From Sediminicola sp. YIK13 (GTDB lineage: Bacteria; Bacteroidota; Bacteroidia; Flavobacteriales; Flavobacteriaceae), in contig NZ_CP010535.1 of the NCBI RefSeq assembly GCF_001430825.1, forward strand, positions 2,832,501 to 2,896,500: a stretch of 64,000 bases of DNA. The letters run 5' to 3'. A model generated the notes under the pieces. The model had not been told where the DNA came from. It made no database searches and worked only from the letters and a program-made list of their open reading frames with translations. The position numbers were made by a program, and so were the translations under genes. Position 1 is the stretch's first letter, and each line of letters begins with the position of its first letter. Shown here piece by piece: positions 1,805 to 19,622 of the stretch.

Positions 1805-1881
<77 letters not shown>

Positions 1882-2268: not shown

Positions 2269-2279
2269 CTATATTGGGA

Positions 2280-2307: not shown

Positions 2308-2329
2308 ATTGTTAGGCAAAATTTAAAAA

Positions 2330-2812
2330 ATGAATTCTTCTTTCAAAAATTATCAAAACCTGAATACGAAGCATAAGAAAACCATTTCTTATATGCTAAG
2401 CGGAGTTCTGATTTTTGCGATTGGAATTGTTGGAATAGGATATATGGATAACGAATTAATTTTGGAGGACGGTCGTTTGGAGATAACTGGATTATATGGA
2501 GCTGAAATACCACTGTCGGACATTCAATTAATTGAATTAACGGAGAAAAGACCTAGTTTGCAAAGAAGAATCAATGGGTATTCATTTGGTAATCGCAAAA
2601 AAGGATTTTTCAGGACAAATGATGGAGAAAGAATTAAAGCCATTATCAATTCTAATGTTTGTCCATGGATTTTAATCACAAAAAAATCTGGTGAAAAAAT
2701 ATACTTTTCCTCAAATGGAAAATCCAACCAGACTATATATCAGGAAATGAGAAAAACTTTGCCTAACATGGGCTATGATTCATTGTGGCATCATACAAAA
2801 TACAAAAAATAG
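2330..2812 (+). CDS. Cassette 1: membrane protein with PH-like domain
   Basis: A 160-residue protein with one hydrophobic helix near residues 20-42, then a domain that looks like a bacterial PH fold: ITGLYGAEIPLSDIQLI, an RINGYSFG turn, KKGFFRTNDGERIKA and a last strand ILITKKSGEKIYFSSN. Bacterial PH-domain proteins are membrane-associated and mostly of unknown function. The reading frame runs into the attC site, so the last 17 or so residues (NMGYDSLWHHTKYKK) are encoded by the recombination site itself. The start lies 19 bp after the cassette boundary. The domain call is moderate; function unknown. Confidence 0.75.
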   Translation: MNSSFKNYQNLNTKHKKTISYMLSGVLIFAIGIVGIGYMDNELILEDGRLEITGLYGAEIPLSDIQLIELTEKRPSLQRRINGYSFGNRKKGFFRTNDGERIKAIINSNVCPWILITKKSGEKIYFSSNGKSNQTIYQEMRKTLPNMGYDSLWHHTKYKK

Positions 2813-2892
2813 AAACAACCAAACGGCCTGATTTCATAAGTGGGAAAGTCTACGACGTTCCCCACAACGAAATCATAGCCTGGGCGTTAGCG
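2761..2892 (+). repeat. attC-like site 1 (class C)
   Basis: The site begins GCCTAAC, the reverse complement of the GTTAGGC that opens cassette 1 at 2311, and ends GTTAGCG, the start of cassette 2. The inner arms GGCTAT/ATAGCC and TTGTGG/CCACAA pair. Same class as sites 10, 12, 15, 17 and 20. Confidence 0.85.
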
Positions 2893-3114
2893 CCAATGGT
2901 GCAATAAAAAACAAAGCATTACGGAGAGTTACGTGGAATGAAAGTTTAGACTAAGGCTCGGGCAAAGCTGATCCTTTTTAAATTGCCTTACCAATCTGTA
3001 CGCAAGCAGAACGCACTCACCTCCTAGTTTGACCTTAAAAAGGCAATTTATAAAAGGTGTAAGAGCGTTAAGTTGTCATATCGCCTTTCACAATGACCTG
3101 GGCAACACCACGGG
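2893..3114 (+). ncRNA. Cassette 2: gene-less cassette body, possible structured RNA
   Basis: No reading frame of useful length exists on either strand. The body contains a long stem: 2973-2989 pairs with 3040-3057 over about 17 bp with one bulge (TAAATTGCCTT / AAGGCAATTTA at its heart), enclosing a 50-nt loop. Cassette 11 is a near copy (about 17 differences over 235 bp) with the stem fully conserved and changes in the loop. It could be a small RNA, a regulatory spacer, or scars of fused attC sites. The RNA call is speculative; the pairing and the duplication are seen directly. Confidence 0.35.
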
Positions 3115-3252
3115 CGCTAACAAGGCCTATAATCCATTGTTTAGCATATTTACTGCAGTTCAAAAGTTTTCGTACTTTAGACCGGCATGATCCCTAGCTC
3201 GATTTGATTGACATCAAATCTCAACAACGGAATCATAGCCAAACCGTTGTAG
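3115..3252 (+). repeat. attC-like site 2 (class D)
   Basis: Begins CGCTAAC, matching the GTTAGCG that opens cassette 2, and ends GTTGTAG. The arms GGCTAT-like and ATAGCC pair, with TTGTTT/CAACAA-type pairing inside. Same class as sites 6 and 11. Confidence 0.85.
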
Positions 3253-3266
3253 GTAATTTTAATTGA

Positions 3267-3785
3267 ATGCAAAAAATACTGATCTTAATTTCTTTATTCT
3301 TCTTTATCAGTTGTCAATCCTCAAAGCAACATTCAGAAATTCCGAAAATATGGTTAGGTATAGTGAATTATGACTCTGGATGGATAAAAGAACGCGGAGA
3401 ATATAATTCAAATTATAAACCCCATCGAGCTAGAATAGGGGTTTGGGAAGAATTTTATGAAAAACTAAAAATAAAAGCAAAGGGTAAATACGAGTCTGAC
3501 TTTTTTGTTCAGTGTTGTATTGGAGGACCCTGTGATATGTACTACAGCTATAAAGTAGGCGAATGGGTATATTATCACACTAATGGTCAAATTAAAGCCA
3601 AAGGGGTGTTTAGAATTCGGAGAAAGAAAATTGAAACAAGTTGTGAGGGTGGTGATTATATTAAGGCAGGTGTTGTGACCGACGCATGGGTGTTTTTTGA
3701 CGAAAATGGCAATAAAACTTCACCTAATCAAGAATTCATTCGAGAAATTGAAGAAAGTAGTTTTATTATTGATTGGGGCACTTAA
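3267..3785 (+). CDS. Cassette 3: lipoprotein with YwqK/MORN-type repeat
   Basis: A 172-residue protein with a lipoprotein signal (ILISLFFFISC, Cys at residue 16), so it is anchored in the envelope. The middle contains KVGEWVYYHTNGQIKAKGVF, a match to the MORN_2 repeat found in YwqK-like proteins, preceded by GVWEEFYEKLKIKAKGKY, a second weaker repeat. YwqK is named as an antitoxin of a Bacillus toxin, but most family members are uncharacterised. The start lies 21 bp after the cassette boundary. Its cassette ends match over 20 bp with only two differences, the best in the array. Confidence 0.75.
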   Translation: MQKILILISLFFFISCQSSKQHSEIPKIWLGIVNYDSGWIKERGEYNSNYKPHRARIGVWEEFYEKLKIKAKGKYESDFFVQCCIGGPCDMYYSYKVGEWVYYHTNGQIKAKGVFRIRRKKIETSCEGGDYIKAGVVTDAWVFFDENGNKTSPNQEFIREIEESSFIIDWGT

Positions 3786-3791
3786 AACTAC

Positions 3792-3986
3792 CTACAACAA
3801 TACCTATAAGCAATGCTGAGTTTGGTGTTTAATCTAAAGTAAGCGTATATTTACTATGTCCGCAAAATCTTTCTGATTTTGCTCTGGCGAAAAAATATAA
3901 ATCAAAACAAAAAGCTTTTGCTACGCGCGAAGACGGAAATAAAAAGTTTCCTTGCCTCCGCACTACTCATAGCTTAGGCGTTGTAA
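3792..3986 (+). repeat. attC-like site 3 (class A, long)
   Basis: Begins CTACAAC, matching cassette 3's GTTGTAG, and ends GTTGTAA. Arms CTATAAG and CTCATAG, and the GCGG-like and CCGC ends, pair. At 195 bp it is longer than the common 131 bp. Sites 8 and 16 are close relatives, all sharing the block GCGTATATTTACTATGTCCG. Confidence 0.85.
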
Positions 3987-4030
3987 TACATTTTAAAAAA
4001 CTAAATCCCTAAAAAAGAACTCAAAAGAAT

Positions 4031-4630
4031 ATGATAAAAATCGGAAGTTTACTATTGGTTTTACTCCTATTCATTTCTTGCGGTTTAAAGAATGAAAAAT
4101 CTGAACAGATCTCTACAACAGAAGATCAAATGAAAGAATTGATAGCAATATTATCTTCAGATTCTAAACCGCATAAAGAAATTGGACCAAAATTATCCGA
4201 TTCTGAAATTCAAGAAGTGGAAAATGCACTTGAATTAGAACTTCCACCTTCCTATAAAATATTTTTAAAAGAATTTGGTAATGGCGCATATTGGCTATAT
4301 ATGAATGCCATAGATGATGTTAAACAAAAAAACTTTTTGAATAAATACCGCAAAGATTTAGGGAAAACGATTCATTTAGTCGGAGGAAAAGAATATGAAG
4401 TGGATTCACTTCTTTGCTTAATGACAGAGGATTCGAACGGCGGAGCTTGGGTTTGGTTGACATCTGAAAATTCAGAAAGCGGAGAATGGCCACTAGCGTA
4501 CTATAGTTTGAGCGATAAAAAACTTCATTACAAAGTTGACAATTTTATCGAATGGTTAAGACTTCTCACGAAGGGTAAATATGAAGTGATTCGTGAACTT
4601 GATCTGGACGGAAAATTAGGCCTAGGCTAA
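4031..4630 (+). CDS. Cassette 4: SMI1/KNR4 (SUKH) family lipoprotein
   Basis: A 199-residue protein with a lipobox (LLLFISC, Cys 17). Residues 60-170 show the SMI1/KNR4 pattern: LSDSEIQEVENALELELPPS, YKIFLKEFGNGAYW, then a late strand LAYYSLSD and NFIEWLRLL. SUKH-superfamily proteins are common immunity proteins against contact-dependent and polymorphic toxins. A lipoprotein form would act in the periplasm, where an incoming toxin might be met. Immunity is an inference from the family; no toxin gene is adjacent. The start lies 44 bp after the cassette boundary. Confidence 0.8.
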   Translation: MIKIGSLLLVLLLFISCGLKNEKSEQISTTEDQMKELIAILSSDSKPHKEIGPKLSDSEIQEVENALELELPPSYKIFLKEFGNGAYWLYMNAIDDVKQKNFLNKYRKDLGKTIHLVGGKEYEVDSLLCLMTEDSNGGAWVWLTSENSESGEWPLAYYSLSDKKLHYKVDNFIEWLRLLTKGKYEVIRELDLDGKLGLG

Positions 4631-4662
4631 TAATTTTCTTGAAAAGGGAAATGAAAAACGTA

Positions 4663-4793
4663 TTACAACAACGTGTATAATTAATTGCTGCGGAATTTCC
4701 TCGCAGGAAATTCACTTGAATTAATTAACTTGCCAATACGTTGGGAAAATCCTAACGGATTTCCCGCAACTAACCATACACGAACCGTTAGCT
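4663..4793 (+). repeat. attC-like site 4 (class B)
   Basis: Begins TTACAAC, matching cassette 4's GTTGTAA, and ends GTTAGCT. Arms CGTGTAT/ATACACG and TGCGG/CCGCA pair. At 131 bp it belongs with sites 5, 13, 14 and 19. Confidence 0.85.
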
Positions 4794-4805
4794 ACAATTT
4801 GAGAA

Positions 4806-5627
4806 ATGACGAAATACATTCAAATTTTCATACTTTTTTTAACCATATCTGCTTGCGGACAAAAAGCAACTGAAATGAAAACACCAAAAACTGCTAATGA
4901 GCAGTTTGCAGAATTCATTGCGAAGAAAAAATTTGTTGAACAAACCTATCCGAATTATTATCAAGGAATCACAGATGAAAAAATGCGACCAATTTTAACA
5001 GAGAAAATCAACCAAATTGCATCTGACTTTAAAAACGTTGCGGAATCTGAAAATCAGACTGACCAAGATTATCAAGAACAAATTGGAATTGGACTTTCAA
5101 GATTTAGAGAAAACTATCTGGAATTAGATACCAAAGACCGAGAAATGGTTTGTGTTTATATTGAGCAATTAATGGATATTGTCGGACTGGAAAGTTCGAA
5201 TGGACAGTTGAATAAATTTATGTACGGATTTGACCCAATGGAAATGGAAAAGGAAGAAAGATGGACTGACGAACACGGGAACGTCTTTATCCAAAAAGGA
5301 AATGAAGTTTCCATAATTCCAGCTAAATACGAGAAAACTGGAAAAACATACAAGGTGTTTATTTTCAATGAGACCTCAAATGAAATTCAAGTTTCAGAAA
5401 GGCTTAAAATACAACCGAATGAATTTAAAGTTTTCAATATGGTGGACACAGACACGCTTGAATTAAATAATGGCGTAAAATTTTTGTTTGGAGAAACTTA
5501 TGGACTAGAAATAGAGGACAAAAAATCACAAGTCAGCGGACTTGGAGCCGAATTTCTGGTAAAATACGGAGTTCCTGACGAAGCTGAATGGGCTTTTGTG
5601 ATTGTCCCGGAAGGCCAAGGAGATTAA
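4806..5627 (+). CDS. Cassette 5: lipoprotein resembling DUF4844 proteins
   Basis: A 273-residue protein with a lipobox (LFLTISAC, Cys 17). The N-terminal 130 residues are helical, with FIAKKKFVEQTYPNYYQGI and YIEQLMDIVGLESSNGQLN, which resembles the DUF4844 family of Bacteroidota. The C-terminal half is beta-rich and may be a small separate domain. No enzyme motif is seen and function is unknown. The start is 12 bp after its cassette begins; the gene is followed 13 bp later by the attC site. Confidence 0.7.
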   Translation: MTKYIQIFILFLTISACGQKATEMKTPKTANEQFAEFIAKKKFVEQTYPNYYQGITDEKMRPILTEKINQIASDFKNVAESENQTDQDYQEQIGIGLSRFRENYLELDTKDREMVCVYIEQLMDIVGLESSNGQLNKFMYGFDPMEMEKEERWTDEHGNVFIQKGNEVSIIPAKYEKTGKTYKVFIFNETSNEIQVSERLKIQPNEFKVFNMVDTDTLELNNGVKFLFGETYGLEIEDKKSQVSGLGAEFLVKYGVPDEAEWAFVIVPEGQGD

Positions 5628-5640
5628 AAATAAAAACTGT

Positions 5641-5771
5641 AGCTAACAACGTGTAAAAATAATTGCTAGGTCACCGTTCATCGGAAAGTCCTGCGGACTT
5701 TCCTTCCGTATTTTTCCTTTTGCTATATTGAGGGCTTAACCACGCAACTATCTTTACACCAACCGTTGGCA
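5641..5771 (+). repeat. attC-like site 5 (class B variant)
   Basis: Begins AGCTAAC, matching cassette 5's GTTAGCT, and ends GTTGGCA. Arms GTGTAAA/TTTACAC pair. Its centre holds a separate small hairpin, GGAAAGTCC/GGACTTTCC. Confidence 0.82.
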
Positions 5772-5780
5772 ATAATTTAA

Positions 5781-6230
5781 ATGACTAATAAACTCAATAT
5801 TTACGAAAAGTTATTTTTTTACCTTTTCACCTCGACCACACGGACTAATAAGTCAATACCTAAATGGTCAACAACAATTTTCTTAGCGACTGTTACTGCT
5901 CTTTATCTGCTAGCATTTGGGATTTTTTCGCCTTTTGATATGAAAATTCTCGGACGGAATGGATTCATGCTTTTCATGGGTACAAGTATTGCTATTCATT
6001 GGTTGTATTTCCTAAAGGACAACAGGATTTTAAAAAAGTTTGAGAGGACAAAGCCTCGCACGCAAATGATTGGAAAAATCCTTACTGGACTTTATACTTT
6101 TGGCGGATTTGCAACTCTATTTTATTCCCTAGGAATTGATTGGATATACACGCTATTTCTAGGCATGCTTTTTGGAGTTTTAGAATTTTCAGCCAAATGG
6201 TTGGGGACTGACCCAATAAAATTTGAATAA
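5781..6230 (+). CDS. Cassette 6: small polytopic membrane protein, unknown
   Basis: A 149-residue protein with about four hydrophobic segments (roughly residues 28-50, 58-78, 100-120 and 122-140) separated by basic loops, so an inner-membrane protein. I do not recognise a family. The start lies 9 bp after the GTTGGCA box, and the coding region ends 6 bp before the attC site. Confidence 0.7.
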   Translation: MTNKLNIYEKLFFYLFTSTTRTNKSIPKWSTTIFLATVTALYLLAFGIFSPFDMKILGRNGFMLFMGTSIAIHWLYFLKDNRILKKFERTKPRTQMIGKILTGLYTFGGFATLFYSLGIDWIYTLFLGMLFGVLEFSAKWLGTDPIKFE

Positions 6231-6236
6231 AACTAT

Positions 6237-6373
6237 TGCCAACATTGGCTATAATCCATTGTTTAGCTTATTTACTACAATTCAAAAGTTTTCGTACTTT
6301 TAACCGGCATGATCCCAGCTCGATTTGATTAACATCAAATCTCAACAACGGAATCATAGCCTAACCGTTAGCT
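6237..6373 (+). repeat. attC-like site 6 (class D)
   Basis: Begins TGCCAAC, matching cassette 6's GTTGGCA, and ends GTTAGCT. Nearly identical in its body to sites 2 and 11 (blocks AAAAGTTTTCGTACTTT and GGAATCATAGCC). Confidence 0.85.
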
Positions 6374-6415
6374 ACAATGACCTAAAAACTCACGTATAAA
6401 AATTAAAAACCACAA

Positions 6416-7288
6416 ATGTTGAAAATATCATTCGTACTTTTTATCACACTACTCTTACCTATTGTAAGTACAGCACAGGAAAATAAAGTAACTACAGGAA
6501 ATGAAAATGGGACACTTATAGCGATTGGTGGTGGAGATATTGGACACACTAATATTATGAAAGAATTTCGGAAACTGGCTGGCGGAGATTCTGCGAAAAT
6601 AGTAGTTATACCAACAGCATTTGTGAGGGACAATGAAATAGATACATTGTTATTAAAAAGAAATTTCAGGGAATATGGAATACCTAATTTTACTGTTCTA
6701 CATACAAATGATTCTACTGAGGTAAATACAGATGATTTTGTGAAACCGATTAAGGAAGCTACAGGTATTTATTTTACAGGTGGTAGACATTGGAGAATAG
6801 CGGATAGTTATTTAAATACCAAAGTACACAAGGAACTATTAAAATTATTGGACAGAGGTGGCGTAATTGCAGGTTCGTCAGCAGGCGCAACTATACAAGG
6901 TTCCTATTTAGCAAGAGGAGATACGAAAAACAATCAAATAATGATGGGAGACCACGAAATTGGATTCGGATTTATTTCAAATATTGTTATTGACCAACAC
7001 GTGTTAAGCCGAAATAGACAGTTTGATATGTTTACAATCCTAGAGAAAAAACCTGAACTTTTGGGTGTCGGAATTGATGAGAGTACAGCTATCGTGGTCA
7101 AAGGAGATACTTTGCAAGTTATTGGAGAAAGTTATGTTATTATCTATGACAAATCGTTCTGGTCAAATGAACATAATCCATTCGATGAGGAAACTCAAAA
7201 AAAACTTCCAAATAAAAACCAATTATTCTATTTTTTGAAAAGTGGAGATAAATATAATTTAAGAGACAGAAAAGTCATTCGGAATTAA
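6416..7288 (+). CDS. Cassette 7: secreted cyanophycinase-like peptidase (S51 family)
   Basis: A 290-residue protein with a signal peptide ending near STAQ. It shows the cyanophycinase layout: LIAIGGGDIG near residue 40, IYFTGGRHWRIADS near residue 119, the nucleophile elbow GVIAGSSAGATIQG with catalytic Ser near residue 154, and GIDESTAIVV near residue 221. Family enzymes cleave cyanophycin or related dipeptides, but secreted Bacteroidota members probably act on other beta-aspartyl-type peptides. The coding region starts 43 bp after the cassette boundary. The fold and catalytic Ser are clear; the substrate is not known. Confidence 0.85.
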   Translation: MLKISFVLFITLLLPIVSTAQENKVTTGNENGTLIAIGGGDIGHTNIMKEFRKLAGGDSAKIVVIPTAFVRDNEIDTLLLKRNFREYGIPNFTVLHTNDSTEVNTDDFVKPIKEATGIYFTGGRHWRIADSYLNTKVHKELLKLLDRGGVIAGSSAGATIQGSYLARGDTKNNQIMMGDHEIGFGFISNIVIDQHVLSRNRQFDMFTILEKKPELLGVGIDESTAIVVKGDTLQVIGESYVIIYDKSFWSNEHNPFDEETQKKLPNKNQLFYFLKSGDKYNLRDRKVIRN

Positions 7289-7308
7289 ACATTGTGCATA
7301 ATCACTTT

Positions 7309-7504
7309 AGCTAACAACGTATATAGCTCATAGCTAATCAGTTGCTTAATCGAAGTTAAGGTATATTTGGAAAGTCGCCAAATTTTTAAATTTGACGATT
7401 TCCTACAAAAAAGATAAATAGTAAAATTTAAAAATCTGGCTTGTGCTCAATCCGAAATTAATCGCTAATTAACACGCTACGAGCCATACACAAGACCGTT
7501 GTAC
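7309..7504 (+). repeat. attC-like site 7 (singleton class, long)
   Basis: Begins AGCTAAC, matching cassette 7's GTTAGCT, and ends GTTGTAC. Arms CGTATATAGCTCATAGC-like and GAGCCATACAC-like ends pair imperfectly. At 196 bp, its body is unlike the other sites. Confidence 0.78.
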
Positions 7505-7513
7505 ACAAGCTAA

Positions 7514-8230
7514 ATGAATATAAGAAGAGTTATTATAAATAGAATCCTATTCCGTTTAGTCCCTATTATTGGTTTATTAATTGCAATAGTATACTTCAAA
7601 GGAATTACCCTTGGTAATATTCTGCATAAAATTTCTATTTGGGATATACTTCTTTTGGGAGTATTGGGCTATTTTTTTTATGACCTAATTAGACACTTTA
7701 AAAAAAGGGCCGAAAGAAATAAAACACTTAAAAATGCTAAGCTCTATGATTACCCAACCGATATAAAAATACCAAGAAGATTAAACTTCTTGGACAAACG
7801 GATCAGTTTTAATGAGAGAAGTATTGATATTACATTCAAAAACAATGTGATCTTGTATTTAAATAAAGACAAGAAAAAATTAGAATTGAAAAAGACCTTT
7901 GGCAAGAAAAACTTGAGCTTCAATGATATTCAATTCATATTCCTTGAATACAACCAGTATGAAAAGGACACTTTGGTCGACCTTTTTTCTTACGGTTCTT
8001 CATTTGATAAAAACATTTGGAACAATGCTATAAGGGCTCAACTAAGAAATGGGGAACAAATTACACTTTTTGAGGCGCAACTTGAAGAAACTAATAATGA
8101 GGCAATGGTCAACTATCAAATTTCTGGAAAACATGAAGAAAAATCTTATTTGGAAAATGGAATTAATTTAATTGGATTGTTTAGTTTTTTTATGGAAAAA
8201 AAATACTTAATAATTGATAATAGAATATAA
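7514..8230 (+). CDS. Cassette 8: membrane-anchored protein, unknown
   Basis: A 238-residue protein with two hydrophobic segments at the N-terminus (about residues 10-30 and 40-58), then a basic linker and a cytoplasmic domain of about 165 residues with alternating strands (ILYLNKDKKKLELKKTFGKK, FNDIQFIFLEYNQYEKD). The strand pattern faintly recalls the PH-like proteins of cassettes 1 and 10, but I would not assign a family. The start lies 10 bp after the GTTGTAC box. Confidence 0.68.
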   Translation: MNIRRVIINRILFRLVPIIGLLIAIVYFKGITLGNILHKISIWDILLLGVLGYFFYDLIRHFKKRAERNKTLKNAKLYDYPTDIKIPRRLNFLDKRISFNERSIDITFKNNVILYLNKDKKKLELKKTFGKKNLSFNDIQFIFLEYNQYEKDTLVDLFSYGSSFDKNIWNNAIRAQLRNGEQITLFEAQLEETNNEAMVNYQISGKHEEKSYLENGINLIGLFSFFMEKKYLIIDNRI

Positions 8231-8239
8231 AAAGCCTGT

Positions 8240-8434
8240 GTACAACAATACCTATAAGTAATGCGGAGTTAGTGTTTAATTTAAAGTAAGCGTATATTTA
8301 CTATGTCCGCAAAATCTTTTCGATTTTGCTCTGGCGAAAAAATATAAATCAAAACAAAAAGCTTTTGCTACGCGCGAAGACAGAAACGAAAATGTTTCCT
8401 TGCCTCCGCACTACTCATAGCTGAAGCGTTATGC
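8240..8434 (+). repeat. attC-like site 8 (class A, long)
   Basis: Begins GTACAAC, matching cassette 8's GTTGTAC, and ends GTTATGC. At 195 bp it is nearly identical to sites 3 and 16. Confidence 0.85.
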
Positions 8435-8457
8435 CTTATTGACAAAAAGAATAAAGA

Positions 8458-10409: not shown

Positions 10410-10432
10410 AACATTTACAAAACAAGACGAAA

Positions 10433-11387: not shown

Positions 11388-11418
11388 ACAATTGGATAAT
11401 AAAATATAATAATTAAGA

Positions 11419-11667: not shown

Positions 11668-11679
11668 ATAATAAACTGT

Positions 11680-11810
11680 TGCCAACAGGGGCTATAATTC
11701 ATTGTGGCATCATGCAAAAAACAATAACATTAACCCCAAAACGGCCTGATTTCATAAGTGGAGAAGTCTTCGACGTTCACCACAACGAAATCATAGCCTA
11801 GGCGTTAGCC
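11680..11810 (+). repeat. attC-like site 12 (class C)
   Basis: Begins TGCCAAC, matching cassette 12's GTTGGCA, and ends GTTAGCC. 131 bp. Confidence 0.85.
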
Positions 11811-11871
11811 TTCATTATCTAAAATCTCGCTATCAACTTAATTACCATACCTTTAGATAAACTAACCATCA

Positions 11872-12918
11872 ATGATAAAATTCTTTAGGAAAATTCGCCA
11901 AAAATTATTAGACGAAAATAAATTGAGTAAATATCTTCTTTACGCCATTGGAGAAATTATACTTGTTATAATTGGAATATTAATAGCGCTTTTTATAAAC
12001 AATAAAAACGAAGTTCGAATGGTTGAAAATAAATTCATTACAAACCTTTTACAGGTTCAAAAGGAACTTGAGTTAAATATTGAAAACACAAACAGCAGCA
12101 TAAATTATTATTTAACCAAGGACAATCTTATAGCATCTGTAATGGCTGATTCTTTGACTACTGAAGATTACTATTCAGATATGAAGAACATAAACATAAA
12201 GCCTTCAAAAGGCCAAGGGTTGTGTTATATAATCTTCAATACAACACAAGTAAATACTCTAAATAATCGTGTTGTTAAGTTGAATCAAAATACTGATAAG
12301 CTACCCAATGAATTTTATCCAATTCTTGAAGAAATAAATAAAATTTATTCTCAATTTAGAACTATAGTAATGGATTGGAATGCAAAAATGCTCACTTTAG
12401 AAAACTCAAATATTGCCAAGTTTAGTGATAATTACAATTGGTTTAACAAGGTTTATTATTTTGAAAAATCAAATTCAGAAGCATTTGAGTACTTTGTAAA
12501 TGACCCAATATATAAAAACTTAGTATCACAGTATTCCTTTTTATCCGAAGAACATTTTAAATCCATAAAAACTTTTAGAAATGAGGGAATCAAATTACAC
12601 ACAGCCATTTCTGACTTTCTGAGACTGGAAGCTAAAACAGATTCAATATCTAATAAATTTATTCTAGATAAAGAATTATTAGACTGCTACGCTGGAAAGT
12701 ATTCATTTGGTTCTGACTCGTATTTTGAAATAACAATAAAAAACAATAAATTATTTTTATCCTATGAATTTGAAAATCTGGAACTTACAGATATATCTGA
12801 AACTAAATTTGTAGGAGTTGATAATGATTTCTCAATAACATTTGAGAACACTAATAATTGTATTTCCAATAGTTTCATTTTTCAGCAAGACGGAGTGTCT
12901 TACAAATTTATTAAATGA
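11872..12918 (+). CDS. Cassette 13: DUF6090 family membrane protein
   Basis: A 348-residue protein. Its N-terminus, FFRKIRQKLLDENKLSKYLL followed by YAIGEIILVIIGILIALFIN, is the hallmark of the DUF6090 family: a short amphipathic arm, then one transmembrane helix. The rest is a helical extracytoplasmic domain to about residue 255, followed by a beta-rich end. DUF6090 proteins are abundant in Flavobacteriaceae, often in many copies, and uncharacterised. The start lies 61 bp after the cassette boundary, the second-longest leader among the gene cassettes. Confidence 0.82.
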   Translation: MIKFFRKIRQKLLDENKLSKYLLYAIGEIILVIIGILIALFINNKNEVRMVENKFITNLLQVQKELELNIENTNSSINYYLTKDNLIASVMADSLTTEDYYSDMKNINIKPSKGQGLCYIIFNTTQVNTLNNRVVKLNQNTDKLPNEFYPILEEINKIYSQFRTIVMDWNAKMLTLENSNIAKFSDNYNWFNKVYYFEKSNSEAFEYFVNDPIYKNLVSQYSFLSEEHFKSIKTFRNEGIKLHTAISDFLRLEAKTDSISNKFILDKELLDCYAGKYSFGSDSYFEITIKNNKLFLSYEFENLELTDISETKFVGVDNDFSITFENTNNCISNSFIFQQDGVSYKFIK

Positions 12919-12937
12919 AATAAAAATAATAACGAAA

Positions 12938-13069
12938 GGCTAACAACATGTATAATTAATTGCTTGTGCAAGTGCTTATTCGGAAAATTCCTATGGAATT
13001 TTCCGAGACAGTTATTGTTTACTAAATTAGGTGCTGACCACCGCACTAATCATACACAAACCGTTGTAA
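12938..13069 (+). repeat. attC-like site 13 (class B)
   Basis: Begins GGCTAAC, matching cassette 13's GTTAGCC, and ends GTTGTAA. The private match here has one extra base on the left arm. Arms TGTATAATTAAT-like and ACTAATCATACAC-like ends pair. Confidence 0.83.
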
Positions 13070-13075
13070 AACATC

Positions 13076-13645
13076 ATGAAAAAAACTCTGATAATATTAA
13101 TAATAGTTCTGACTTCGCATTTAGCTGAAGCACAGTTTATAAAAGAAAAATCAATAAACGCTCAAATTGGATATGGTATCAGTGTGCCATATAATAGTAT
13201 CGACGAAGTTGCCGATGGTGGCTTTTTTGCACAAGGAGAATTGGTTTTAAATGTCGCTTCATGGTTTGAATTAAGACCTTACGCAGGTTTTATTTTAACA
13301 AATTCTAGCGGAAAAGATTTGAATAACAATCCTACTAATGAAAAAGCTGAATCAAAAGCCTTTTTACTTGGAGGAAAAGCAAGAGTTCGTGCACCAATTG
13401 CTTGGGTTGCACCATATGTTGAAATTGGAATAGGAACTTCAATTGGAAAATTTGAAACATTAACAGCTTTTGACAATATTGATAAAGGAGGAATAATTTA
13501 TCACATACCTTTTTCAATTGGTCTAGAATTAGGGAAAAATAATAATGTTGATTTAGGGTTTACTTATTATTTTCAACCATCAGTTCAGCAGTTCGTTGGA
13601 GCATTTGCAGTTGGAATTACATTTCCACTGAATAATAAAAAATAA
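13076..13645 (+). CDS. Cassette 14: outer-membrane beta-barrel protein
   Basis: A 189-residue protein with a signal peptide ending near AEAQ. The mature part is built of amphipathic strands with glycine and aromatic girdles (FFAQGELVLNVASWFELRPY, IAWVAPYVEIGIGTSIG, NVDLGFTYYF) and ends in a strand AFAVGITFPL. It is a small porin-like or OmpW/opacity-like barrel. The start codon is only 6 bp past the GTTGTAA box, so the box probably forms part of the ribosome-binding region. Confidence 0.75.
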   Translation: MKKTLIILIIVLTSHLAEAQFIKEKSINAQIGYGISVPYNSIDEVADGGFFAQGELVLNVASWFELRPYAGFILTNSSGKDLNNNPTNEKAESKAFLLGGKARVRAPIAWVAPYVEIGIGTSIGKFETLTAFDNIDKGGIIYHIPFSIGLELGKNNNVDLGFTYYFQPSVQQFVGAFAVGITFPLNNKK

Positions 13646-13649
13646 CGTT

Positions 13650-13782
13650 TTACAACAATGTATAAAAATAATCGCTCAATTTTGGGCTTAACGAAAGGTC
13701 GTTGCAAGTTTACTACGTCTGATTTTCCTGCGGAAAATCCTCGCATGTAAACCCGCAACTATTCTTATACGAACCGTTGGCA
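13650..13782 (+). repeat. attC-like site 14 (class B variant)
   Basis: Begins TTACAAC, matching cassette 14's GTTGTAA, and ends GTTGGCA. Arms TGTATAA/TTATAC and CGCTC-like/CCGC ends. The centre holds a GATTTTCC/GGAAAATC hairpin. Confidence 0.82.
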
Positions 13783-13800
13783 ACAATTAAAACATAAAAA

Positions 13801-14439
13801 ATGAAAAATATATTATTAATTATCCTTTTGGTAGTCGCTAATTATTCAATAAAGGCACAAACAGATACTTATCCTAAAGGAAGTTACATGAATTTCCAAG
13901 AAATATTGGATAAAACCCCATCTGAAAACTTTTCTGTTGAGCTCGAAAAACGGAGTAAAGGAAAAATAAAAATGAATGGCGGAAATGATTATCAACTAAA
14001 CCCAATCGATGAAAATATTAAAAATAATGTTTTAAAAAAGGAAGTCTATGCATACTCTGACGGGAATGATTTGTATTTAAACAGCTTCCAACACGAACTA
14101 CAGTTTTGGTATAGTAAAGTTGATGGTGAAAATGATAATTATTTCGTTTTTAATGCTGGTATTCCAATGAACATGAAAAGATATGGAATGAAATCTTCTG
14201 ATATTTCATATATGTTTGGAGGGATTATTGCAGGATTTAGTGCGGCCAAAAGAGCATTAATCCGCTTGCCTTACTTAATGAACAAAAATACTCAAGAAGT
14301 AATATTAGTATCCGAAAAAAATATTAGAGATTTAATGAATGGATCAACGGAGCTGATTGCGGAATATGAAAAAGAAACTGAAAAAGATAACGTTGAGACA
14401 TTGAACAAGTACCTTATAAAATGGGTATCTGAAAAGTAA
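13801..14439 (+). CDS. Cassette 15: secreted protein, unknown
   Basis: A 212-residue protein with a signal peptide (MKNILLIILLVVANYS, cleavage near KAQ). The mature region has PKGSYMNFQEILDKTPSENF, which resembles the opening of small flavobacterial secreted proteins that carry a conserved K-G-x-Y-x-s/t-f-e-e-i-l motif, and a hydrophobic glycine-rich stretch FGGIIAGFSAAKRALIRLPY near residue 140. No function can be assigned. Confidence 0.68.
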   Translation: MKNILLIILLVVANYSIKAQTDTYPKGSYMNFQEILDKTPSENFSVELEKRSKGKIKMNGGNDYQLNPIDENIKNNVLKKEVYAYSDGNDLYLNSFQHELQFWYSKVDGENDNYFVFNAGIPMNMKRYGMKSSDISYMFGGIIAGFSAAKRALIRLPYLMNKNTQEVILVSEKNIRDLMNGSTELIAEYEKETEKDNVETLNKYLIKWVSEK

Positions 14440-14446
14440 GAACTGT

Positions 14447-14577
14447 TGCCAACAAGGGCTATAATTCATTGTGGCATCAAGCAAAAAACAAAAATATTAA
14501 CCACCAAACGGCCTGATTTCATAAGTGGGAAAGTCTACGACCTTCCCCACAACGAAATCATAGCCTAGGCGTTGTAA
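14447..14577 (+). repeat. attC-like site 15 (class C)
   Basis: Begins TGCCAAC, matching cassette 15's GTTGGCA, and ends GTTGTAA. 131 bp. Confidence 0.85.
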
Positions 14578-14590
14578 CCAATTTAACAAA

Positions 14591-15280
14591 ATGAAATTTG
14601 TTCAGGTATTATTCTTCATTACCATAATAGCTTTTAACTCTTGTAAGCAAGGTAAAAAATCCAATTCTGAAGAGATTAAAATTAATGTTGAGCTAAAAGA
14701 TAAACTAGAATCAATTTTATTAAAAGATCAAGGAATACGAGAAATAGTAGATGGAAATTTAAATCATGAAAGAAGGGTTTTCTTGTTAAATGAAATGCAA
14801 TTGAATGAAACGGATATAGAAGGGAACAAAAAATTTGACTTAATGGATGAAATTGATAGTATCAATTTACTCGAAACCGAAAACATTATAAAAAATCATG
14901 GCTACCCGAGTAAATCTTTAGTTGGCGAACCTGCTAATAAAGCTGTTTTTTATGTCATTCAACACTCTAATAAAATAGAGGAATACTTACCTCTAATTAG
15001 AAAAGCTAGCCAAAATGGAGACATCGCTAAAACCTCATTAGCAATGATGGAAGACAGGAATTTAATGAATAAAGGAATTGAACAACTTTACGGGACCCAG
15101 ATAAAAGGACAAACCAATAAAAAAGGTGAATGGATTTACTTCCTCTGGCCAATTAAAAATGCTGATTCAATTAATATTTGGAGAAAAGAAATTGGATTTA
15201 AACTAAACGTAGAGGAATATGTAAAGGAAATGGGAGTTGAATTTAGATTATATCAAATCAACGAATTAAGCGATTTATAA
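14591..15280 (+). CDS. Cassette 16: DUF6624 lipoprotein
   Basis: A 229-residue protein with a lipobox (IIAFNSC, Cys 18). From about residue 40 it follows the DUF6624 pattern: a DLMDEIDSINLLETENIIKNHGYPS segment, LVGEPANKAVFYVIQHS, ASQNGDIAKTSLAMMEDR and IEQLYGTQI. The family is widespread in Bacteroidota and uncharacterised. The start lies 14 bp after the box. Envelope location follows from the lipobox. Confidence 0.78.
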   Translation: MKFVQVLFFITIIAFNSCKQGKKSNSEEIKINVELKDKLESILLKDQGIREIVDGNLNHERRVFLLNEMQLNETDIEGNKKFDLMDEIDSINLLETENIIKNHGYPSKSLVGEPANKAVFYVIQHSNKIEEYLPLIRKASQNGDIAKTSLAMMEDRNLMNKGIEQLYGTQIKGQTNKKGEWIYFLWPIKNADSINIWRKEIGFKLNVEEYVKEMGVEFRLYQINELSDL

Positions 15281-15288
15281 AAAACTGG

Positions 15289-15485
15289 TTACAACAATAC
15301 CTATAAGTAATGCGGGGTTGAGTATTTAACTCAATGGTTTGCGTATATTTACTATGTCCGCAAAATCTTTTGGATTTTGCTCTGGCGAAAAAATATAAAT
15401 CAAAACAAAAAGCTTTTGCTACGTGCGAAGACGGAAACGAGAAAGTTTCCTTGCCTCCGCACTACTCATAGCTTAGGCGTTAGGC
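15289..15485 (+). repeat. attC-like site 16 (class A, long)
   Basis: Begins TTACAAC, matching cassette 16's GTTGTAA, and ends GTTAGGC. 197 bp. Body as in sites 3 and 8. Confidence 0.85.
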
Positions 15486-15490
15486 AACAT

Positions 15491-16294
15491 ATGAAAAAGT
15501 TAATTCTGATAGTCACTAGTATTTTCTTAATGTCCAACTTATCTGGACAAGAATGTGAATATGAGGAATATTTTCGGTTGACAGATTTGGCTAAAAAAGA
15601 GTTTTCTGAACAAAATTTTAATGGGGCTAAACGGAACTTCCAACTTGCCTTTGCCAAAACCGACATTCCCCTCGGACATGATTTAAGCTATGCCTTGGTC
15701 ACAGCTAATGAAACAAAGGACAATGAATGGGCTGAACATGTGGCAGAAAAGTTGGCAAAAGGTGGTACGCCATTAAGGTATTTTGCAAAATTCAAAAAGA
15801 AGAAGTGGTACAATAAATTTAAATCAAATTTTGAACTACATGCTAAATATTACGTAGACCATTTTAATATAGAAATGCGAAATCGATTCTTAGAAATTTC
15901 ACAAGACGATTATGAATTTACTAATAAATACCACCAGTGGAGAGAACGAAAAATAGAATTGACATTACAAGAATTAATTGACGGAGCAACAAAGATACTA
16001 ACGGACTTTAAGGATTTCAACGAAAAATATGGGTTTCCAAATGAACAACATATGGGATACAATTATGTTCGTCATAAAAATAGAATTGAACCATATCATG
16101 TTGATGTTATTATGATACATAGTAATCAATGGGGTGTGTTAACATATGAAGATAAAATACATGACCTTGTCTGCACAGGGGGTATTCACCCGAGTTTTGA
16201 AAAATCATTAAAAGGGATTCGTGGATATGGCAATAGCACTGGAGTTGAACAAGAAATGCAAGCCAGATATGCAAAATACAGAGGGACAAAATAA
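15491..16294 (+). CDS. Cassette 17: secreted protein with TPR-like N-terminus, unknown
   Basis: A 267-residue protein with a signal peptide (MKKLILIVTSIFLMSNLSGQ). Residues 25-80 look like one or two tetratricopeptide-like helix pairs (YFRLTDLAKKEFSEQNFNGA, DNEWAEHVAEKLAK). The C-terminal part has GYNYVRHKNRIEPYHVDVIM and a GIHPSFEKSL segment, and is unassigned. I chose the ATG at 15491, 6 bp after the box; the same frame is open back to 15377 but that stretch is the preceding attC site. Confidence 0.7.
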   Translation: MKKLILIVTSIFLMSNLSGQECEYEEYFRLTDLAKKEFSEQNFNGAKRNFQLAFAKTDIPLGHDLSYALVTANETKDNEWAEHVAEKLAKGGTPLRYFAKFKKKKWYNKFKSNFELHAKYYVDHFNIEMRNRFLEISQDDYEFTNKYHQWRERKIELTLQELIDGATKILTDFKDFNEKYGFPNEQHMGYNYVRHKNRIEPYHVDVIMIHSNQWGVLTYEDKIHDLVCTGGIHPSFEKSLKGIRGYGNSTGVEQEMQARYAKYRGTK

Positions 16295-16302
16295 AATACG
16301 TT

Positions 16303-16433
16303 GCCTAACATTGGCTATAATTCATTGTGGCATCATGCAAAAAACAAAAATAATAACCGTCAAACGGCCTGATTTCATAAGTGGGAAAGTCTACGACGTT
16401 TCCCACAACGAAATCATAGCCTAGGCGTTGTGT
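16303..16433 (+). repeat. attC-like site 17 (class C)
   Basis: Begins GCCTAAC, matching cassette 17's GTTAGGC, and ends GTTGTGT. 131 bp. Arms GGCTAT/ATAGCC, TTGTGG/CCACAA. Confidence 0.85.
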
Positions 16434-16482
16434 GTCAGTTTAACAGAACAGCAATTAGAAGATTAGAAATATAAAGTTTACA

Positions 16483-17925
16483 ATGAAAAAGAAAATTATA
16501 TGGATTTTAATTGCGATACTGATAGTTACAATTGGTTATTTAGCTTCATTGTCTGACCCACCAGAAGATGAATCAATAAGGTTTGTTGACATCAATAATT
16601 ATATATCAAAGGAAGAAATGTTTTTTGATATTGATAGCTTAACAAGCACCTTTGAGAAGATTCACCCTAATCCATATAGATTTTTCCAAAAAACCAATCA
16701 CCAATCAAAGGTCGACTCTATAAAACTACAGCTTCCAGATAGTTTGACTATTATAAATTTTTGGCGAATTATTGATCAAATTGTCATTGGCTATAACGAT
16801 GCTCATTCAACTGCACATGATAGTTATGTTCTCACAGATTATGTAAAAAAGGAAAAATTATTCTTTCCCCTTTCGGCAAGAATAGTTGAAAATAAAATAC
16901 TTGTTTCGGTTAGTGAAAGTCAAGAGCAGATTTTGCCAAAAAATACAGAAATAATAAAAATAAACGGGAAGACATCCGAGGAATTGATTAAAGACTTACT
17001 CAACCATGCTACAAGAGAAGCGCAATCATTGAAACTTTTGGAAATATCGGATGATTTCCGGTTCTATTTATGGAAAACCTACAATTGGGAGGAAGATTTT
17101 AACATACATTTTAAAACAATTGAAAGTTCAAGTGCAGATTCAATGCTTATAAACGGCATTAAATGGGAAAATCGAGAAAAATTAACGAAAAATGAAACTC
17201 AATCATATAATTTCAACATATTGGAAAACCAAGTTGGCTATATGAAAATCTCAGACTTTAATAGTGATGAAAAAGAAATTAAGAACTTTTATAAACAGTC
17301 CTTTAAATCATTAGTAGAAAATAATTCATCACATATAATCTTAGATTTTAGAGGTCACAAAGGAGGAGCTGATAGCTTTGGAGAACATTTAGCTAAATAT
17401 TTTGCCAAAGAACCATTTAGAAAATTATCAAAAGCATATTGGAAAATAACCCCTGAGTTTAAAGAAGCCTTTGACAGAAAATTTATCCCTATTAGTATCC
17501 GTTGGTTTAAACCAGTTTATCTGGTTAATGGATATTCAAGCATTTTTTATGGAGCGAAAAAAAATGAATTGGTAACAGTCAATTATGAAATGAATAAACC
17601 TTTATCCGAAGAAGAGAGATTCCTTGGAAATGTATATTTGATAACAGACCATAATACTTTTTCAGCAGGGTCAATTTTCGCAGAAATGTTTAAGTTTTAC
17701 AATATGGGGAAAATAGTTGGCCAACCAACAGGTAATTTGTACTCTTTTAATGGTTTTGCGCTTACTAATTTCACGCTACCCTATTCAAAATTATCATTTC
17801 AAGTTTCTTCGGTTTATAATATTGCAAATAACGAATATGAAGGAATGAAATCTGTACAGCCTGACGATATTATTGATTTAAAAGAAAACCCTGTGGATTA
17901 TATTATTGAAACATATATCCGATAA
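16483..17925 (+). CDS. Cassette 18: S41 family peptidase-like protein
   Basis: A 480-residue protein with an N-terminal membrane anchor or signal (IIWILIAILIVTIGYLASL). It has the S41 order: an N-terminal helical bundle, a PDZ-like LSARIVENKILVSVSESQ region with IIKINGKTSEEL near residue 165, then the catalytic fold with HIILDFRGHKGG near residue 285 and the nucleophile region DHNTFSAGSIFAEMF near residue 390, Ser in SAGS. S41 enzymes (C-terminal processing and tricorn-like proteases) act in the envelope. The Ser motif is intact; the substrate is unknown. Confidence 0.85.
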   Translation: MKKKIIWILIAILIVTIGYLASLSDPPEDESIRFVDINNYISKEEMFFDIDSLTSTFEKIHPNPYRFFQKTNHQSKVDSIKLQLPDSLTIINFWRIIDQIVIGYNDAHSTAHDSYVLTDYVKKEKLFFPLSARIVENKILVSVSESQEQILPKNTEIIKINGKTSEELIKDLLNHATREAQSLKLLEISDDFRFYLWKTYNWEEDFNIHFKTIESSSADSMLINGIKWENREKLTKNETQSYNFNILENQVGYMKISDFNSDEKEIKNFYKQSFKSLVENNSSHIILDFRGHKGGADSFGEHLAKYFAKEPFRKLSKAYWKITPEFKEAFDRKFIPISIRWFKPVYLVNGYSSIFYGAKKNELVTVNYEMNKPLSEEERFLGNVYLITDHNTFSAGSIFAEMFKFYNMGKIVGQPTGNLYSFNGFALTNFTLPYSKLSFQVSSVYNIANNEYEGMKSVQPDDIIDLKENPVDYIIETYIR

Positions 17926-17955
17926 TTAGAAAATTAACATAGAAGAAAACCGAAC

Positions 17956-18086
17956 ACACAACAATGTATATAAAAAATAGGCGAAACAGTAATAAATTCA
18001 AGGCTTTTGGCTCGTTTCGAAATTTATGCTTAACCGAAAGTTTGGTGCTTCGAAACCGCCTACTTTTCATATACTAAACGTTGTGC
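17956..18086 (+). repeat. attC-like site 18 (class E)
   Basis: Begins ACACAAC, matching cassette 18's GTTGTGT, and ends GTTGTGC. 131 bp. Near-identical body to site 9. Confidence 0.85.
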
Positions 18087-18100
18087 AACATTTAAATCAA

Positions 18101-18871
18101 ATGAAGAATTTCCTAACTATAATCAGCTTTTTATTTTCAATTCTTGCCGTTTGTCAATCCAATCCCATGGATTTGTACAATACTGGCAACGCAAATTTTA
18201 AAGCTGGAAACTTCGAAAAAGCAATCGAAAACTATACGGAGTTAATGGAAATCATTGAAGAACCTACTGTCCAAAAAACCTGTTTTATCAATCGAGGTCT
18301 TTCATACGACAGACTTAAAAAATATGACTTGGCAATTGCGGACTTCACAACTGCAATAAAAATGGACAGCACGGACATGGCGTCATATATTGACAGAGGA
18401 ATTTCAAAAATGCATTCTGGCAATCTTGAAAAAGCAATAATGGACTTTAATCATGTCATTCGATTGAAAACCAATCAAAGAATGACAGAAAACGCTATTT
18501 ACTGGAAAGCCAAAATTCATTACTCGCAACAAAAGTTTGAAGAAACCGTAGCTGATTGTGACCAGTACTTTCTTATAAACCCAAAAGACCCGGAATTGTA
18601 TTTTATTCGTGGCTCAGCGAATGGAATGTTACGGAATTTCGAGGAGGCGATTAAAGACTATGATAGGGCAATCGAATTGAATCCAAATTACTACCAGGCA
18701 ATTGCCAACAGGGGAACAACAAAAATCAACCTTCTGACTGGAAATGGAAAGCTACAGCCAAGTAAGAGAGAAACAAGAAATCCATGTAAGGACCTAAAAA
18801 AAGCCAAGGAATTGGGAGATAACTCTGTGGACGACTTAATTTACGTTTACTGCGACAAAAAAAGAAAATAA
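18101..18871 (+). CDS. Cassette 19: TPR repeat lipoprotein
   Basis: A 256-residue protein with a lipoprotein signal (FLFSILAVC, Cys 18). At least five tetratricopeptide repeats follow: LYNTGNANFKAGNFEKAIEN, FINRGLSYDRLKKYDLAIAD, YIDRGISKMHSGNLEKAIMD, IYWKAKIHYSQQKFEETVAD and YFIRGSANGMLRNFEEAIKD. TPRs make protein-protein contacts; no partner is evident. I chose the ATG at 18101; the upstream extension of the frame falls in the attC site. Confidence 0.85.
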   Translation: MKNFLTIISFLFSILAVCQSNPMDLYNTGNANFKAGNFEKAIENYTELMEIIEEPTVQKTCFINRGLSYDRLKKYDLAIADFTTAIKMDSTDMASYIDRGISKMHSGNLEKAIMDFNHVIRLKTNQRMTENAIYWKAKIHYSQQKFEETVADCDQYFLINPKDPELYFIRGSANGMLRNFEEAIKDYDRAIELNPNYYQAIANRGTTKINLLTGNGKLQPSKRETRNPCKDLKKAKELGDNSVDDLIYVYCDKKRK

Positions 18872-18878
18872 AAACGTT

Positions 18879-19009
18879 GCACAACACGGTGTATAATTAA
18901 TTGCGGGCGGAATTTCCAATTGGAAATTCCTGCAATCAATTATCTTTAATGTCAGGCGGACATTTTCCGTTGGAAAAGTCCGCAACTAATCATACACGAA
19001 CCGTTACCT
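18879..19009 (+). repeat. attC-like site 19 (class B)
   Basis: Begins GCACAAC, matching cassette 19's GTTGTGC, and ends GTTACCT. 131 bp. Arms GTGTAT/ATACAC and TTGCGG/CCGCAA. Confidence 0.85.
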
Positions 19010-19031
19010 GCAAGCTGAAAACAAATCTGGA

Positions 19032-19583
19032 ATGTATAAAAACTTAGAAACTGATAGACTAATAATCCGACCAATCAACTTGACAGACTCAAAGTTTATT
19101 ATTGAATTGGTTAATTCTGATGGATGGTTGAAGTTTATTGGAAATAGGAATATATCTGACAAGAATGATGCTGAAAAGTATATTCAAAAAATACTTGATA
19201 GTCCAAACTTTTATTATAGCGTTTTCCAATTAAAAACCACAAAAGAACCTGTCGGAATAGTCACATTTTTAAATCGTGCGGAACAAAAATTCCCAGACAT
19301 TGGATTTGCAATGTTACCTGAGTATGAAAAAAACGGATACACATTAGAAGCAAGTAGAAAATATTTAGATGAAATAATTAAATCTAATAAATATGAAAAC
19401 ATTATAGCAATTACTATTCCCGACAATCAAAAATCTATTAAATTACTTATGAAACTCGGACTTGAGTATGAATCTGATTATGTTGGAGATAATGGCACGT
19501 TATCTATATTTAGTTTGAGTCCTGAAAAAAAGCCAGCAGGTAACAATGGCTATAATTCATTGTGGCAGTATGCAAAAAACTAA
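19032..19583 (+). CDS. Cassette 20: GNAT acetyltransferase (RimJ/RimL type) with attC-encoded tail
   Basis: A 183-residue protein that opens YKNLETDRLIIRPINLTDSK, the typical start of RimJ/RimL-type GNATs, and has IGFAMLPEYEKNGYTLEAS as the acetyl-CoA region and NQKSIKLLMKLGLEYESD as the C-terminal signature. Such enzymes acetylate protein N-termini, antibiotics or small molecules. The last 14 residues (NNGYNSLWQYAKN) are encoded by the truncated attC site, just as in cassette 1. No signal peptide is present. Confidence 0.83.
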   Translation: MYKNLETDRLIIRPINLTDSKFIIELVNSDGWLKFIGNRNISDKNDAEKYIQKILDSPNFYYSVFQLKTTKEPVGIVTFLNRAEQKFPDIGFAMLPEYEKNGYTLEASRKYLDEIIKSNKYENIIAITIPDNQKSIKLLMKLGLEYESDYVGDNGTLSIFSLSPEKKPAGNNGYNSLWQYAKN

Positions 19584-19622
19584 AATAGAAACCACCAAAC
19601 AGCTTGATTTCATAAGTGTAAA
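19538..19622 (+). repeat. attC-like site 20, left half only (class C, truncated)
   Basis: Begins AGGTAAC, matching cassette 20's GTTACCT, and follows the class C body as far as CTTGATTTCATAAGTG, then similarity stops. The right arm (CCACAA...ATAGCC...GTT) is absent, so the array was cut here when it joined the mobilisation module. Confidence 0.75.

Follow-up and report, generated by a model that had tools for sequence, protein, structure and literature searches.

The stretch of DNA analyzed here (the window; 64,000 nucleotides of Sediminicola sp. YIK13, contig NZ_CP010535.1, positions 2,832,501 to 2,896,500, part of a 3.57 Mb genome contig) very probably carries an integron array of 20 cassettes together with its attI, seated on a mobilizable element in a tRNA-Ala gene; the cassettes are likely moved by a recombinase encoded elsewhere in the genome and outside the IntI clade. 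Judged by the sequence tests made, the array belongs to an integron lineage that is not built on IntI and is common in Flavobacteriaceae. A first-pass annotation of the window had recognized an integron-type array, and this part of its reading stood; the attI, the mobilizable element and the non-IntI integrase had been overlooked. Its suggestion of a divergent integron-type lineage resident in Bacteroidota gained support from one-strand folds, recurrent cassettes and a family-wide pairing of recombinase and array.

IntegronFinder 2.0 is reported to have found one complete integron in Bacteroidetes, that of Salinibacter ruber, where earlier only In0 had been known (PMC9024848); a review counts Bacteroidota among integron hosts (PMC8618304); an early survey selected intI genes by their extra domain (PMC2426708); attC models have been published for a number of taxa, none of those named being Bacteroidota (PMC8352920); and in macroalgal biofilms a source was assignable for about 10% of attC (PMC10963911). 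Because surveys detect integrons through IntI and its extra domain, a lineage with another integrase would go unseen, and its arrays would be filed as integrase-less or missed. Among the papers listed by searches on integrons in Bacteroidota and flavobacteria and on related terms, with bioRxiv and most subscription journals outside their scope, none was recognisable as a description of this system.

Cassettes, sites and strand choice

Twenty cassettes, all in one direction, were found at 2311-19622, with 19 complete attC-like sites of about 125-191 bp and a truncated 20th that ends at about 19622 (Table 1). In all 20 cassettes the leading box was the reverse complement of the box at the cassette's own gene end over 8-10 nt. 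The mean match was 9.65 with the own end and 4.03 with other cassettes, and 0 of 100,000 permutations reached the observed sum. We read this complementarity as the mark of units that were once circular, the residue of a circle whose one joined site was opened at GTT. Since the box pairs were located by searching for the own-end match itself, shuffled sequence is a fair control.

The array was scored with a self-made chain finder, which needs self-matched boxes and complementary arms under limits that we set for arm score, box match (8/9) and site length (55-240). The window array scored 294, whereas 60 dinucleotide shuffles scored at most 49. Shuffles, upstream flanks and other loci served as controls; the opposite strand was dropped because the pattern is symmetric, which makes that strand useless as a control. 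At a threshold of 52, the highest score of 200 shuffles, 4 of 10 canonical IntI loci (L145-L154) passed, with 7 to 10 sites in L149, L151, L152 and L154; of the class 1 integron stretches L143 and L144, neither passed. This weak recovery of positive controls means that a miss by the finder is weak evidence and that the finder undercounts arrays. The 20 same-direction units of box, gene and attC-like site described in the first-pass annotation were borne out by the boxes, the 19 complete sites and the shuffle control. It had also stressed that most boxes do not fit GTTRRRY, which is true of 18/20 window boxes but is not distinctive, because 23/30 boxes from four canonical IntI arrays misfit too; deviation from GTTRRRY was rejected as a mark of the lineage.

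When the sites were joined as in a circle, the bottom strand gave fold z-scores of -3.0 to -6.8 in 19/19 complete window sites. The architecture on this strand comprises an R stem, a small asymmetric loop, an L stem (17 pairs in the consensus) and a variable end. Minimum-energy folds contained both stems in 17/19 window sites, the R stem only in site s12 and neither stem in s17. Apart from these two, which prefer another minimum-energy fold, the sites have the R and L stems folding on one strand that characterize attC, and they are not the plain terminators without one-strand folding that had been named in advance as refuting an integron reading. The data from 150 sites, in an alignment that had been fitted to the structure, showed that 95.3% of L-stem cells were paired, with 376 double-change cells versus 134 after shuffling. 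Site length fell at 112-125 or 176-190 in 511/556 sites, though the finder permits 55-240, and the base preceding GTT was C in 359/384 cases versus 6/30 in canonical arrays.

The stems also contain conserved wobbles. G.T occurred at one stem pair in 144/146 distinct sites and at another pair in 115, and the bottom strand was more stable in 114/120 sampled sites, with a mean difference of 3.2 kcal/mol; the wobbles may thus help to set strand choice. Own-end box matching was followed in 398 cassettes of the family, for which the finder itself requires 8/9 matches at box positions 1-9. Beyond that range, positions 10, 12, 13 and 14 matched the own box in 71, 87, 89 and 75% of cassettes, compared with 38, 66, 44 and 41% for other cassettes. 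Position 11 matched in 3%, the reason being an A opposite C on the top strand, equivalent to a T.G wobble on the bottom strand.

Sister arrays, attI and cassette movement

One type of window site (class C) was searched in 60 genomes; in the own genome, which was among them, further copies adjoined two genes for tyrosine recombinases. Each gene heads a recombinase-attI-array locus. The A1 locus extends from C1:63489 down to about 46.9 kb; its array holds at least 14 cassettes and starts about 40 bp behind the recombinase gene (372 aa, C1:62371-63489, minus strand). The A2 locus spans C1:2430250-2449204; its array holds at least 20 cassettes and starts about 80 bp past the stop codon of the recombinase gene (381 aa, C1:2430250-2431395). 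A covariance model, of the kind that the first-pass annotation had proposed, was built from 15 window sites and used to score 150 of 2124 first-look candidates from the whole genome. Among the candidates scored, 56 matched, and 55 of these belonged to the three arrays or to the region that follows A1 downstream over the contig ends, which agrees with the integron reading; the lone match outside lay at 2101058 (E 6.3e-4). Over 33 loci, 123/123 matches of the model fell in 9 recombinase loci and 0 in the 24 others. Site matches recurred with equal spacing at the two contig ends, in C1:1-10500 and in the final 10.5 kb up to 3569807 (offset about 10.5 kb), and the circular contig is seemingly untrimmed.

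Several window cassettes recurred in the sister arrays. Cassette 13 is 99.7% identical to A1 cassette 2 along all of its 1259 bp. A2 holds counterparts of cassette 12 (A2 cassette 9, 99.3% of 423) and of cassette 10 (A2 cassette 8, 95.6%). A1 also has cassette 4, with 807 bp at 100%, and copies of cassettes 2 and 11 occur in A1 as well as in A2. The copies start and stop at GTT, and their neighbours differ between arrays: A2 cassettes 8 and 9 are adjacent, and the window has cassette 11 lying between their counterparts, 10 and 12. Among 626 cassettes from 80 arrays there were 18 between-array pairs with 90% coverage of both members (8 within the own genome and 10 between genomes), and the right neighbour was kept in 0/18. 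The fixed gene order without shuffling that the first-pass annotation had said would refute it was therefore not seen. Together, the self-matched boxes and the shared full-length cassettes indicate that the cassettes behave as the discrete mobile units of integrons. It is hardly conceivable that the units are ordinary island genes separated by recurrent terminators or REP (repetitive extragenic palindromic)-like palindromes. The sites are indeed palindromic and intergenic, and 2/19 take another minimum-energy fold, but each box pairs with the other end of its own cassette, which a terminator would not do, full-length cassettes reappear beside other neighbours with breakpoints at GTT, and the site lengths cluster as described above.

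The A2 recombinase gene is followed directly by a block with two palindromes, the last of them 28 bp long and separated by 3 bp from the first GTT. This block recurs in the window at 91.6% identity over 107 bp at the DNA level; it begins about 20 bp inside the 3' end of the recombinase gene and is present without a recombinase upstream. In most recombinase-bearing loci with a usable array, attI lies beside the recombinase gene at the start of cassette 1. Of the 16 main-clade loci in which an attI was located, 12 had a 9-14 bp stem placed 3-6 bp before GTT, with a stem sequence that varies by genome; by the same measure the stem was absent at L079, L080, L084 and A1 among these 16. In the second clade (L095-L111), the motif ATATAACNAGTT stands between recombinase and first cassette, exact in 9/17 loci and as near variants in some others; we take it as the attI of that clade, unlike the palindromic attI of the main clade. 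The leading box behind the recombinase was compared with the first tail box in 42 loci, 9 of them without a usable array, and matched it in 24 of the other 33, A1 and A2 included. The idea that the attI arm copies an attC arm of its own host was rejected (8.79 of 22 matches with own arms, 8.69 with others; own above other in 13/23 loci).

The first-pass annotation had described the array as lacking an integron integrase. This is right for the window, in which no integrase of the cassette-recombinase type was found and the only integrase is of another type and belongs to the mobile element. It does not hold for the genome, which has two recombinase-bearing arrays, and the window itself retains the A2-type attI block. 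With at least two attC and no integrase nearby, the window array is a CALIN (cluster of attC sites lacking an integron integrase), but it differs from a simple CALIN in its recognisable attI, its mobilizable element and the two matching recombinase-bearing arrays in the same genome.

The recombinase, its partner gene and their spread

No protein of the own genome passed the TIGR02249 (IntI) cut-off, the best whole-protein score being 207 of 265 bits. The proposed look for an IntI-like recombinase elsewhere in the genome turned up the two array-adjoining tyrosine recombinases. Recombinases of the A1/A2 type scored 230-231 bits with NF040815 (XerA-type, cut-off 220). Their matches to the IntI hidden Markov model and to PDB 2a3v break into two pieces around the IntI insertion, and the recombinase lacks this IntI-specific part of the catalytic domain. 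Its N-terminus carries an additional domain of about 100 aa, whose profile had no significant match among PDB sequences (best E 0.045). In the tree, nine canonical IntI formed one clade (100/100) with the recombinase family outside it, and the family and IntI stood together, away from XerA and Xer (100/97). The integrase of these arrays would accordingly not be of the IntI clade. XerA and XerC-XerD (NF040815, PDB 5hxy, 4a8e) share its core fold; in contrast to them, the family groups with IntI, is array-linked and carries the extra domain. Arrays were also seen near three short recombinases (L168, L169, L170; 306-313 aa; array scores 193, 72 and 95) that lack the complete N-terminal domain.

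The system shares with sedentary and mobile IntI integrons the tandem single-gene cassettes in one direction, bottom-strand attC with R and L stems, the GTT core, an attI beside the recombinase gene, the reordering of cassettes between arrays and a location on chromosome or mobile element. It differs from them in the recombinase, which has the features given above and whose gene reads toward the array, in a divergent partner gene (main clade), in the attI palindrome, in the conserved G.T wobbles and in the C before GTT. Archaeal integrons likewise lie outside the classical hosts and are mostly CALINs, but their integrases are reported as IntI, identified through the IntI-specific domain (PMC9668308), whereas here the insertion is absent.

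It could be argued that the window array is a true CALIN of ordinary integrons, whose IntI was lost or lies elsewhere. The sites do obey attC logic, arrays of canonical IntI are picked up by the chain finder as well (4/10 loci), and other classes of the phylum often carry canonical IntI (84/296 genomes of the phylum above the cut-off). However, only one of these IntI-positive genomes belongs to the same class and none to the same order or family, no protein of the own genome reaches the IntI cut-off, A1 and A2 lie directly behind a non-IntI recombinase, and the window shares the A2 attI block. We consider this explanation very improbable.

The partner gene encodes about 134 aa with a CxxC...C...CxxxC-like pattern and lies upstream of the recombinase gene, divergent from it; Pfam gave nothing above cut-off for the protein. 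A relative was present in 75/80 named loci, on the opposite strand in 75/75. The distance to the recombinase, with the recombinase start taken as locus position 10001, was 62-247 bp in 62/75 loci (the other 13 were not recomputed). The gene was upstream in 20/23 main-clade loci versus 1/17 second-clade loci. A set of 199 genomes contained 49 high-scoring relatives; for 44 of these a recombinase lay no more than 300 bp away, always on the opposite strand (44/44). A weaker paralogue occurs in most of the 199 genomes, and 169 had any match.

The spread of the recombinase was examined in the same 199 Flavobacteriaceae genomes. The recombinase was matched at E 1e-40 in 125 of them, short homologues included, and near full-length recombinases with at least 54% identity were present in 32, counting the own genome. 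Forty recombinase loci were picked by score and room on the contig, and 29 scored above 52 over the whole locus; the others were L078, L079, L085, L090, L092, L094, L095, L096, L100, L102 and L107 (L107 exactly 52). In the 80 named loci (Maribacter, Zobellia, Winogradskyella, Arenibacter, Lacinutrix, Gelidibacter and others), an array lay downstream of the recombinase in 23 of the 41 with at least 3 kb there, and upstream in 0/75. The contig ended less than 3 kb after the recombinase in 39/80 loci versus less than 3 kb before it in 5/80, as assemblies tend to do at repeats. The family has two subclades, both with arrays. Outside Flavobacteriaceae, 3/8 homologue loci passed the finder (L157 59, L158 121, L162 110). 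A plasmid of Pontibacter kalidii, pls1 (L142), was considered as an array carrier and rejected, since its recombinase is 39.6% identical but no array was detected; pls1 is typed as mobilizable and has several small same-direction genes behind the recombinase.

The array-adjoining recombinase might be a bystander, with XerC/XerD or another host recombinase moving the cassettes. Its role in cassette movement is deduced from sequence, and some arrays, the window's for example, have no close recombinase. We regard this as very improbable, because the pairing is directional (downstream 23/41, upstream 0/75), attI lies between recombinase and array, arrays occur in both subclades, and the chain finder found no array near the two other Xer-like genes of the own genome (L038, L039, L179). 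The A1/A2-type recombinase thus likely captures and shuffles the cassettes.

For a recombinase of this kind, the following steps are proposed. A cassette would exist as a circle, the bottom strand of which folds to a hairpin, and in the R box of this hairpin both ends of the one cassette would be joined; the G.T wobbles, being A.C mismatches on the top strand, would favour the bottom strand. The recombinase, perhaps aided by its extra N-terminal domain, would join the hairpin at GTT, with attI in insertion and with another attC in excision and shuffling. The window array probably arose by loss of the recombinase part of an integron head, which left attI and cassettes, and may now be served in trans by the A1 and A2 recombinases. 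The relaxase and integrase of the element could carry whole arrays between cells.

A broader reading, for and against which we find the balance even, is that of a second integron family in Flavobacteriaceae and other Bacteroidota. It would have an IntI-sister recombinase without the insertion, hairpins read via an XPB-DRD/HARP-like structure-specific domain, strand choice by G.T wobbles, a treble-clef-like partner and an attI palindrome, and would spread on tRNA-targeting mobilizable elements, some with cassettes and attI only. A lineage without the IntI insertion would allow the direct question of what the insertion is for, and it bears on the origin of integrons from Xer-like recombinases and on folded single-strand recognition. 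Flavobacteriaceae are major degraders of marine polysaccharides, and they would gain a gene-capture platform, partly on mobilizable elements.

Mobilizable elements and cassette cargo

The window array lies within a 24 kb element (1837-26015) that also holds the attI, replication genes, a NikA-like protein, a relaxase and an integrase. No conjugation gene was present among the six main open reading frames (ORFs) scanned at 20468-25881. With its tRNA direct repeats, integrase and relaxase, the stretch has the makeup of a predicted integrative mobilizable element. A sister backbone was found at the end of A2 in inverted orientation; the two share 94.5% identity along 4.76 kb, and their integrases differ (24% identity). 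The sister element (26 kb, C1:2429562-2455770) is in a tRNA-Arg gene with 24-bp repeats and encloses the A2 partner gene, recombinase, attI and array. By repeats and gene content, the window's element carries its array as cargo that lacks an integrase of its own, and the tRNA-Arg element carries a complete integron, A2. Arrays on mobile elements are also a feature of class 1 mobile integrons, which reside on plasmids and transposons; here, in contrast, the carriers are mobilizable elements in tRNA genes, one of the two without a recombinase.

Relatives of the window's element were rejected as general array carriers, as the stretches at 11 of 30 other relaxase matches (8 genomes) scored at most 34. 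The relaxase-match stretches numbered 20 (L260-L279), some of them one-sided, and the site model had no match in 19/20 (19 examined).

Table 1. Features of the array and its element in the window. Each cassette begins with the GTT of its leading box; "no ORF" means no complete + strand ORF of 60 aa.
Feature	Position	Strand	Details
tRNA-Ala (GGC)	1805..1881	+	element insertion site; ARAGORN, Rfam
Element left end	1837..1879	+	43-bp exact direct repeat of tRNA 3' end
attI	2209..2310	+	91.6% match to block behind A2 recombinase; 28-bp palindrome 3 bp before first GTT
Cassette 1	2311..2885	+	gene 2330-2812; attC 2761-2885
Cassette 2	2886..3245	+	no ORF; attC 3115-3245; close copies: cassette 11, A1, A2
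Cassette 3	3246..3979	+	gene 3267-3785; attC 3792-3979
Cassette 4	3980..4786	+	SUKH-like gene 4031-4630; attC 4663-4786; 100% copy in A1
Cassette 5	4787..5764	+	DUF4844 gene 4806-5627; attC 5641-5764
Cassette 6	5765..6366	+	gene 5781-6230; attC 6237-6366
Cassette 7	6367..7497	+	Peptidase_S51 gene 6416-7288; attC 7309-7497
Cassette 8	7498..8427	+	gene 7514-8230; attC 8240-8427
Cassette 9	8428..10402	+	AAA_15 ATPase gene 8458-10284, defence-like; attC 10279-10402
Cassette 10	10403..11021	+	bPH_5 gene 10433-10915; attC 10898-11021; 95.6% copy in A2
Cassette 11	11022..11380	+	no ORF; attC 11250-11380
Cassette 12	11381..11803	+	gene 11419-11667; attC 11680-11803; full-length A2 copy, 99.3%
Cassette 13	11804..13062	+	gene 11872-12918; attC 12938-13062; full-length A1 copy, 99.7%
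Cassette 14	13063..13775	+	OMP_b-brl-like gene 13076-13645 (under Pfam cut-off); attC 13650-13775
Cassette 15	13776..14570	+	DUF6563 gene 13801-14439; attC 14447-14570
Cassette 16	14571..15478	+	DUF6624 gene 14591-15280; attC 15289-15478
Cassette 17	15479..16426	+	gene 15491-16294; attC 16303-16426
Cassette 18	16427..18079	+	Peptidase_S41 gene 16483-17925; attC 17956-18079
Cassette 19	18080..19002	+	TPR gene 18101-18871; attC 18879-19002
Cassette 20	19003..19622	+	GNAT acetyltransferase gene 19032-19583; attC broken off at about 19622
DUF5906/VapE-like gene	20468..21673	+	replication-type
CHC2/Toprim primase-like gene	21881..22837	+	
NikA-like mobilization protein	22834..23136	+	
Relaxase	23136..24005	+	MobA/VirD2-like
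DUF6730 protein	24018..24491	+	
Element integrase	24607..25881	-	Arm-DNA-bind_5 + Phage_int_SAM_5; outside cassette-recombinase family
Element right end	25973..26015	+	second 43-bp tRNA repeat

The cargo of the whole recombinase family was summarized from 397 cassettes, with a median length of 826 bp. The longest ORF was on the forward strand in 360 and on the reverse strand in 18, and 19 had no ORF of 60 aa. In the window, the AAA_15 ATPase of cassette 9 (608 aa) gave PADLOC matches to AriA, GajA and Old-like proteins, which points to defence-like cargo. The ORF-less cassette of about 359 bp (2886-3245 and 11022-11380) was present in four copies across the three arrays, which were 91-94% conserved.

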